This document shows positions 31,302-35,142 of a DNA stretch of 56,684 bases, piece by piece (position 1 is the first letter of the stretch; each line of letters starts with the position of its first letter). Position numbers and translations under genes: made by a program. The notes under the pieces were generated by a model. The model was not told where the DNA came from. It searched no databases and was given only the letters and a program-made list of their open reading frames with translations. Source of the DNA: Boseongicola sp. SB0665_bin_10 (GTDB lineage Bacteria; Pseudomonadota; Alphaproteobacteria; Rhodobacterales; Rhodobacteraceae). The stretch lies in NCBI GenBank assembly GCA_009838075.1, contig VXSG01000075.1, forward strand, positions 1 to 56,684, in the 5' to 3' direction.

Positions 31302-34213
<2,912 letters not shown>

Positions 34214-34280: not shown

Positions 34281-34316
34281 AGGAAAGAAGAAGGGCCGCC
34301 GACGAGGCGACCCTTC
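34281..34316 (-). terminator. terminator-like hairpin in the arfB leader
   Basis: On the minus strand GAAGGG (34311-34316) and CGCC (34306-34309) pair with GGCG (34297-34300) and CCCTTC (34290-34295), with a 5-base loop. A pyrimidine-rich tail (CTTCTTTCC) follows. It ends 68 bases before the arfB start. Its first arm, AAGGGTC (34309-34315), can alternatively pair with GACCCTT (34385-34391) further upstream, which would prevent termination. Confidence 0.65.
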
Positions 34317-34324
34317 CGAGTATC

Positions 34325-34470
34325 TTGGAGATGGGCCGGCAAGGGACCGGTCTGACCGGTGGCCCAATCAGGAGTGCATTAGCAAAGGGTCTGCCCTTCA
34401 GCTGATGGGTCTCCTGACTGTCCGGACACCTCTCTCCAATATCGCTCTGGACACTGGACCACCTCCTTTC
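34325..34470 (-). promoter_or_regulatory. candidate leader-peptide attenuator for arfB
   Basis: The minus-strand RNA between yhhQ and the terminator can fold as a three-way arrangement: TTGGAGA (34433-34439) with TCTCCAA (34325-34331); TCAGGAG (34411-34417) with CTCCTGA (34368-34374), enclosing the hairpin AAGGG/CCCTT (34385-34398); and TGGGCC (34361-34366) with GGCCCA (34332-34337), enclosing ACCGGT/ACCGGT (34346-34360). All stems are perfect. The first two upstream arms lie inside an 18-codon leader frame. TTGACA at 34512-34517, just after the yhhQ stop, is a candidate -35 box, though no good -10 is seen. Confidence 0.55.
34398..34454 (-). CDS. candidate leader peptide upstream of arfB
   Basis: A GTG at 34454 is preceded by AAAGGAGGTG (34460-34469), an almost complete complement of the 16S rRNA 3' end, with 7-base spacing from GGAGG. 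The frame encodes VSRAILERGVRTVRRPIS and stops at 34398. Five of 18 codons are arginine, four of them AGA or AGG, and one is ATA. These are rare in this G+C-rich sequence, and AGG-AGA stands in tandem at codons 14-15. A strong ribosome site driving a very short, slowly translated frame is typical of attenuator leaders. No homolog is known to me. Confidence 0.5.
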   Translation of the reverse strand: MSRAILERGVRTVRRPIS

Positions 34471-34518
34471 GCCTGTTTCGGTTGCGCGGAGGGTGGCACG
34501 GATTCCGCCGCTGTCAAA

Positions 34519-35142
34519 CTATTTTGCGTCCTGCCCGCCCAGATTCTCGACAATGAGGCGAAATGGCACCAGTGCCAGAACGGCAATTCCAAGCTTCACG
34601 CCCCAGTCGGCCAGCGCAAGCGACATCCAGAGCGGCAAAACGGGTCCGATCCCCAGCAGCGGCAGGGTGTCGTTTGCCCAGCTCACGTCGTTTCGGGGCT
34701 CGACGAACGCAAGCCATGCCGAGAACGCGATCGTGAAAAAGATTGCCGTGTCGACCGCCGAACCGATCAGTGTCGAAATGAACGGGGCGCGCCACCATGC
34801 CCCTTCTCTCAGCCTGTCGAACACGGCCACGTCCAGCAGCTGCGCGGTCAGGAAGGCCAGCCCGGATCCGGCCGCGATTCGCCACGTCACCAGCGGTCCG
34901 AATTCGCCCGCGATCTGTGTTCCGGCAATGGAACAGATCACGCCGACCACGAAACCTGCCAACACGACCTTTCGAGCCATGGCGGCCCCGTAAAGCCTGT
35001 TCATCACATCGGTCACCAGGAATGCCAGCGGGTAGGTGAACGCGCCCCATGTCAGCCACTGGCCAAACAGGAACTGCACAAGGATGTTGGACGCCACGAC
35101 GATTGTGGCCATGCAGAGTATGCCGGGCAGGATGCGGGACAT
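34519..35142 (-). CDS. yhhQ: queuosine precursor transporter
   Basis: A 207-residue inner-membrane protein of the YhhQ/VUT family, which imports preQ0/preQ1 for tRNA queuosine. It has about six helices; LTWGAFTYPLAFLVTDVMNRLYG is the family signature near residue 35, with SAVDTAIFFTIAF later. The start at 35142 (MSRILPGILCM) was chosen over an upstream in-frame codon. I looked for a preQ1 riboswitch in the leader and saw no clear match. Downstream on the same strand lie the arfB leader and arfB. Confidence 0.9.
   Translation of the reverse strand: MSRILPGILCMATIVVASNILVQFLFGQWLTWGAFTYPLAFLVTDVMNRLYGAAMARKVVLAGFVVGVICSIAGTQIAGEFGPLVTWRIAAGSGLAFLTAQLLDVAVFDRLREGAWWRAPFISTLIGSAVDTAIFFTIAFSAWLAFVEPRNDVSWANDTLPLLGIGPVLPLWMSLALADWGVKLGIAVLALVPFRLIVENLGGQDAK

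Follow-up and report, generated by a model that had tools for sequence, protein, structure and literature searches.

Attenuators of amino-acid operons combine a short translated frame, hairpins and a terminator with a gene downstream. Dual-function RNAs such as staphylococcal RNAIII and SgrS likewise carry a short translated frame, and RNAIII has in addition C-rich anti-Shine-Dalgarno segments. Within the bacterial family considered here, UpsM is described as an sRNA that comes from the leader of the dcw cluster of R. sphaeroides and arises on termination (PMC5089854). As for the alphaproteobacterial sRNA CC2171, passages of two papers list it as an RNA without more (PMC11701678, PMC5596092). 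No description of a small RNA between yhhQ and arfB, or of its match to the 16S tail, was found in the open-licence PMC literature; among the matches listed by a string search, most are uses of 16S primers to judge by their titles.

The RNA described here lies on the minus strand of a 56,684-nucleotide stretch of a Boseongicola genome (the window), between a yhhQ-like gene and arfB. An earlier note on this DNA had read the gap as a leader-peptide attenuator of arfB, and its coordinates, stems and complementarities all agree with the minus strand on re-reading. Comparison with relatives points instead to an independent small RNA gene of ~190–200 nt, running from about 34483 (an inferred end) to 34281, which would most likely act as a 30S-gated switch; we regard the case for this reading as evenly balanced. 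The compared sequences show that the RNA has its own −35 box, a complement to the 16S tail, an open frame, a fold and a terminator. The features of the locus, in the order of transcription, are the following.

34519–35142, minus strand: yhhQ-like gene, 207 aa (PF02592 Vut_1, E 4.9e-29)
34512–34517, minus strand: −35-like box TTGACA, one base past the yhhQ stop codon
34454–34470, minus strand: Shine-Dalgarno sequence GAAAGGAGGTGGTCCAG, complementary to the 16S 3' tail with one G-U
34460–34466, minus strand: 5' strand of stem P1, GGAGGTG, the Shine-Dalgarno core
34435–34458, minus strand: stem P2, the start-codon hairpin, with arms 34458–34450 and 34443–34435
34398–34454, minus strand: 18-codon frame MSRAILERGVRTVRRPIS followed by TGA, with a GTG start at 34454 and the TGA ending at 34398
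34335–34427, minus strand: stem P3, arms 34427–34423 and 34339–34335, one C-C mismatch in the window
34366–34419, minus strand: stem P4, arms 34419–34413 and 34372–34366, the second stem of the earlier note
34385–34398, minus strand: stem P5, a short hairpin just past the stop codon, the third stem of the earlier note
34327–34334, minus strand: 3' strand of stem P1, CCATCTCC, a mimic of the 16S anti-Shine-Dalgarno (consensus CCTAACYGGCCCAYCTCC)
34281–34317, minus strand: intrinsic terminator, a hairpin (34317–34289) with a pyrimidine-rich tail
33794–34213, minus strand: arfB, 139 aa (RF-1 domain PF00472, E 3.8e-21)

We take the last gene to be arfB rather than another RF-1-domain protein, following the earlier note and the basic tail of the product.

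At gathering thresholds, no Rfam family is found in the window. The best relaxed match is RF01867 (CC2171), with 28.3 bits and E 3.7e-4 against a cut-off of 75, and a known riboswitch or another Rfam family was rejected, the eight other relaxed matches lying far below their cut-offs. The RNA thus looks like a divergent and distant relative of CC2171. Like the Caulobacter sRNA, it carries GAAAGGAGGTGATCCAGTGTC at its 5' end, has a similar length and closes with a GC-rich 3' terminator hairpin; the conserved 5' block of CC2171, GAAAGGAGGUGAUCCAGUGUC, is also present. The two differ in the CAUUGUC/GACAAUG helix, which belongs to the Rfam model but is gapped out where the window is aligned to it, in the length of the frame (18 codons in the window against 22–30 in 23 copies outside the family) and in their gene neighbours.

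In what follows, "family" means the family of the window and "class" the genomes of the alphaproteobacterial class. Of the 61 genomes covered by a first DNA search, 31 (one of them G000) matched, and further copies of the RNA were obtained from arfB loci fetched separately. Copies were aligned with MAFFT: alignment A1 holds 41 of them, and A2 holds the 37 that are left after removal of two near-copies (L034, L061) and two divergent ones (L068, L071). The divergent pair was restored in A3, whose 80 copies are the source of most counts and which excludes near-copies, L151 (41.5 bits) and the three copies that contig ends truncate (L007, L051, L080). A covariance model, R1, was built from aligned family copies. 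Since A3 was fitted to the model, it leans towards the model structure; A2 is structure-blind, was not fitted to the model and returns the same verdict on covariation (0/500 shuffles).

The Shine-Dalgarno sequence of the RNA is exceptional. As read from genome sequence, the 16S 3' tail is GGCTGGATCACCTCCTTTCTAAGG in a genome of the same genus (L203) and in G340, the two that yielded it among the 14 genomes asked; the window's own assembly did not yield it. With this tail, GAAAGGAGGTGATCCAG pairs over 17–18 bases, into the start codon and with one G-U in the window. In GAAAGGAGGTGGTCCAG, complementarity takes in the start codon's first base, and a further G-U adds the second. The earlier note had recognised an extended Shine-Dalgarno at 34460–34469; it is indeed there, at a greater length than was given, from 34470 to 34454. 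The computed duplex amounts to −34.6 kcal/mol, compared with −12.1 for a plain AAGGAGG site, and the 4.8-Mb genome has only two places, this one included, that match the 16-base form GAAAGGAGGTGATCCA with no more than one mismatch. As a 17-bp duplex that reaches into the start codon may hinder ordinary initiation, binding of the 30S subunit may serve another purpose.

The same RNA carries a counterpart of the 16S tail. P1 joins the Shine-Dalgarno core (34460–34466) to 34333–34327, a strand that forms the conserved CAYCUCC just before the terminator. Its cells are paired at 99.6% over the 80 copies and at 96.9% on A2, figures in which pairing and plain conservation are indistinguishable, P1 being without covariation because the Shine-Dalgarno is invariant; changes occur on the 3' side only, and nearly all of them keep the pair. 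By duplex energy, assessed against single-base shuffles, the mimic stands out as partner of the Shine-Dalgarno (z below −2) in 42 of 80 family copies and in 10 of 23 non-family copies. By this measure, the 16S mimic is common and not universal.

The fold as a whole is upheld by covariation. The 239-nt stretch of the window folds with a z of −3.1 (0/200 shuffles as low). On A2, 17 of 41 pairs show two-sided changes, values that none of 500 shuffles reaches, and on A3 the count rises to 26 of 41 (0/500 as high). Two-sided changes are found in 4 of 9 pairs of P2, where TTG starts are matched by a change in codon 6 (A3); in 4 of 5 pairs of P3 on A3 and 1 of 5 on A2; in 7 of 7 pairs of P4 on A3 and 5 of 7 on A2; and in two of the three modelled pairs of P5. 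Predicted stems P1, P2 and P3 are new, going beyond those of the earlier note, which had drawn three perfect stems, as follows.

34439–34433 with 34331–34325, minus strand: the long stem, TTGGAGA/TCTCCAA
34417–34411 with 34374–34368, minus strand: the second stem, TCAGGAG/CTCCTGA
34398–34394 with 34389–34385, minus strand: the third stem, AAGGG/CCCTT

All three are confirmed in the letters of the window, and covariation upholds the two inner ones as P4 and P5. The long stem does not survive the comparison, with 75.2% of cells paired and 312 of 500 shuffles as high; its 3' bases serve P1 better, in which they are paired with the Shine-Dalgarno at 99.6%. Of the four hairpins in the earlier note, which had suggested aligning relatives to test for covariation, three covary: P4, P5 and the terminator, which rank among the best-supported parts of the fold. 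Between P3 and P4, a conserved internal loop, GGRACA/CCUAAC, occupies A2 columns 49–54 and 134–139 and could be a protein or RNA contact.

The short frame is maintained together with the fold. The frame is exactly 18 codons long in 77 of the 80 family copies and shorter in the rest, with 13 codons in two and 17 in one; the start codons of the 77 are GTG (69), TTG (4) and ATG (4). Intact frames (77/80) exceed anything seen in 2000 column shuffles (mean 56.6, maximum 65; 0/2000 reach 77), and the three premature stops compare with a mean of 7.2, a count as low being met in 63 of the 2000. The translated 18-codon leader frame claimed by the earlier note is therefore well borne out as a prediction, its length being kept and its reading open beyond all shuffles. 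The stop itself is TGA in 31, TAG in 26 and TAA in 12 of 69 copies, a conservation that is partly circular because these rows were chosen for 18 codons.

Signals for both ends of the predicted transcription unit are recognisable. Counted from the start codon, TTGA[CT] lies at −70 to −58 in 60 of the 80 family loci (at −65 to −63 in 58 of the 60); elsewhere in the scanned interval of −100 to −22, no position shows it more than four times. A transcription start would be expected near 34483. At the other end, a terminator-like pattern alone means little in the window, where it is at chance density (2 in 1601 bases on both strands against 1.9 expected), and relatives were therefore needed to decide. 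All 41 family copies scanned have a hairpin with three or more T among the 8 bases after it (a count made with no shuffle control, the proximal hairpin being picked by hand in L047 and L081 over the distal one chosen by the script), and terminator pairs show two-sided changes in 9 of 10 cases on A3 and 7 of 10 on A2. The terminator hairpin that the earlier note had placed before arfB is accordingly present in the window and covaries among relatives. Conserved in relatives are, besides the frame and its Shine-Dalgarno, both inner stems and the terminator.

From these elements, a switch can be proposed. In the closed form, the Shine-Dalgarno would be masked by the RNA's own 16S mimic, with the start codon inside a hairpin. 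A free 30S subunit would win the Shine-Dalgarno from the mimic, and the tiny frame would be translated. Binding of the 30S and translation would open the multi-branched fold and keep it open, and the opened fold would expose the CCAYCUCC arm, for example to the Shine-Dalgarno sites of other mRNAs. Expression, binding and translation of the RNA are predicted from the sequence. Since the peptides differ across the class, the act of translation would matter more than its product. Such an RNA would resemble RNAIII and SgrS in being structured and in having a short frame, and RNAIII also in its C-rich anti-Shine-Dalgarno segment. It differs from them in carrying a near-full complement of the 16S tail as well, and its trans action is a proposal from sequence alone. 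If true, most sampled genera of a large family would have kept an RNA that senses the supply of ribosomes directly. The switch also supplies a hypothesis of function for CC2171, which passages of PMC11701678 and PMC5596092 list without more.

The covariation (0/500 shuffles), the open frame, the 17–18-bp complement of the 16S tail and the near-complete pairing of P1 favour the small-RNA switch, and so does the occurrence of complete copies that are unlinked from arfB. In a census of 120 family genomes, strong copies (best match above 40 bits, the only ones counted) were found in 104, and any match at E<=1e-3 in 109; the threshold thus drops 5 of the 109, and some weak copies are missed, such as that of G020, which has no match in the census yet reaches 41.5 bits at its arfB locus. 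The RNA is just upstream of arfB in 82 of the 104, away from it in 21, and in one no arfB was found. Among the 21, arfB is on another contig in 8, a figure that may include contig breaks, and elsewhere on the same contig in 13 (on the opposite strand in 3). This adjacency is quoted from the genome census only, since loci L031–L110 were fetched via arfB and hence chosen by it. Four genomes (G017, G023, G030, G033) have a complete RNA far from arfB, scoring 142–164 bits against 144 for the window and retaining the frame, the terminator and a −35-like TTG box (TTGCCA in L012), and the arfB loci of the same genomes (L146, L147, L148, L150) give no match to R1. The tie of the RNA to arfB that the attenuator supposed is consequently not general. 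Conversely, an sRNA unrelated to arfB would not need to adjoin it in as many as 82 of 104 genomes, although the arrangement could go back to an old gene order; yhhQ, directly upstream in 75 of the 80 fetched copies, is a neighbour as constant as arfB.

A serious, if unlikely, alternative is that the RNA is a leader of arfB with partial termination, in which leaky or otherwise regulated termination yields both an sRNA and the arfB mRNA, as with UpsM. The terminator sits between the RNA's own promoter and a close downstream gene. The gap, taken between the last base of the model match and the first of the arfB alignment, is at most 60 nt in 47 of the 82 adjacent cases, which leaves little room for an ordinary promoter before arfB and makes read-through plausible. 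Read-through into arfB is the part of the attenuator idea that plausibly survives. The UpsM precedent belongs to the same bacterial family and is also a leader with a terminator before a gene; it differs in being described, in the abstract of its report, as non-coding (PMC5089854), whereas the RNA of the window has a conserved frame and no constant gene downstream. Competing pairings that could regulate termination do exist. A helix scan ranks several pairings of terminator bases with upstream bases: GAAAGGA of the Shine-Dalgarno pairs with the 3' arm of the terminator in 83.3% of cells (142/500 shuffles as high), and the G-rich end of the frame pairs with the U-rich tail in 78.9% (97/500). 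Neither exceeds the shuffles, which counts against this explanation, even though the first six pairs of GAAAGG/CCUUUC hold in 93–100% of copies and the shuffle test is blind there because both sides are near-invariant, so that an antiterminator of another design is conceivable. The unlinked complete copies count against the leader explanation too, and arfB could instead be transcribed from a promoter within the RNA. On the small-RNA switch reading as well, arfB is probably also made by read-through in most genera, so that the RNA doubles as its leader; this role appears as a consequence of local gene order and not as the general function across the family. The RNA also offers a clean test of whether or not ribosome rescue by ArfB is tied to the state of translation.

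Copies outside the family also speak for the small-RNA switch, which may be generalised. At E<=0.01, 142 class genomes gave CC2171 matches in 31, of which 5 pass the cut-off, and 14 control genomes gave them in two, Caulobacter vibrioides and Deinobacterium chartae, with one passing it. A search of 289 class genomes located the exact pattern AAAGGAGGTGATCCADTGTC in 21 and the reversed pattern, used as control, in none. Together, these searches gave 46 loci (some of them twice), and arfB or yhhQ lies within the fetched stretch only at L132, which is from a family genome; 20 flanking frames, picked at twelve other loci for their length and codon bias, fall into diverse protein families. Frames in the 23 distinct non-family copies run to 22–30 codons and encode peptides that vary from group to group. 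For 8 of the 23, the Shine-Dalgarno finds its best partner within the frame itself, in a 16S-like piece (CTGGATC..CGCCTCC and variants). It is conceivable, and in our view rather doubtful, that all belong to a class-wide type of RNA that reads the 16S tail with a complement and a mimic, a throw-away peptide unmasking a trans-acting arm, and that in the family also feeds arfB. Were this so, ribosome rescue would be tied to the supply of initiating ribosomes in the family of the window.

That the RNA is a plain small mRNA, made for high-rate production of an 18-aa peptide with a fold that merely tunes or protects it, seems improbable. Its fixed frame length, kept stops and very strong Shine-Dalgarno would suit such a role, as would codons 7, 10, 11 and 12, which are nearly fixed within the family. 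These fixed codons are, however, mostly within or beside conserved RNA stems, and codons 16–18 drift freely. Two family copies have 13 codons only, and non-family peptides share little past the initial MS (22 of 23 begin so), although small groups share more.

The attenuator as drawn in the earlier note, in which rare codons hold a ribosome back so that GACCCTT is freed for an antiterminator and transcription proceeds into arfB, has become very unlikely. Its frame, inner hairpins and terminator are conserved, arfB is usually adjacent and often close, and the pairing of GACCCTT with AAGGGTC is strong in the window (z −3.0 against shuffles). Amino-acid operon attenuators resemble the window RNA in just these respects, having a short frame, hairpins, a terminator and a downstream gene; they differ in that the RNA is without a conserved form of the drawn antiterminator or control codons and has an inconstant gene downstream. 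In relatives, the antiterminator is paired in 64.1% of cells (382/500 shuffles as high), and in 72.4% when slid by one column; aligned freely, only 6 of the 80 copies, the window's among them, have it at a z below −2 against single-base shuffles. Neither it nor the long stem is conserved among the 80 family copies. The stall fares no better: tandem AGG-AGA is present in just one of the 77 18-codon copies, while AGA at codon 3, found in 59 of 77, is located in the loop of P2. In folding models, a parked ribosome leaves the finished terminator unaffected, formed at a mean of 0.95 in each state; for the nascent RNA, the models predict the shift of the earlier note at above 0.2 in 10 of 80 copies and a reversed one in 3. 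The existence of complete copies unlinked from arfB points the same way. The antiterminator, long stem and rare-codon stall of the attenuator, none of them upheld by relatives, were rejected. Finally, an antisense RNA directed at the 16S tail or its precursor while ribosomes assemble or decay, with an incidental frame, is highly improbable, for it would explain why complementarity passes the spacer to the start codon, beyond what initiation needs, but would have no need of the GTG, TTG or ATG starts and the stops that are kept.

Some further observations concern the surroundings and relatives of the RNA. At L112, a CC2171-type RNA directly precedes a YaiI/YqxD (DUF188) gene (993–1652), and L111 resembles it by eye, with a close downstream gene other than arfB. 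Ten viral contigs hold the motif, four as longer frames (40 codons shown), four in a form of 14–16 codons and two as CC2171-like copies; a phage origin was considered and set aside, the three viral matches to the family model being weak (21.3 bits at most). On contigs L236, L237, L239 and L241, the 16S-complement start is followed by a 14–16-codon frame, MS[YN][SP]KRCHLA.., that holds GTCACCTC, a 16S-tail mimic inside the frame, and on L238, L242 and L243 the longer frame MSSCGSKRMRSGG.. also comes with a long 16S-complement Shine-Dalgarno. In 4 of 80 family loci (L008, L009 and L011 among them), TGTGGATAA lies in the promoter region, within 100 nt upstream of the RNA; it resembles a DnaA box, and its presence may be due to chance. 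On the far side of the locus, arfB overlaps tail to tail by 4 bases (33794–33797) with a plus-strand frame of 722 aa (31629–33797), which we take by eye to be a catalase-peroxidase, katG. A second terminator-like hairpin of 11 pairs (33816–33844, plus strand) lies inside the 3' end of arfB, positioned as if ending the plus-strand gene.
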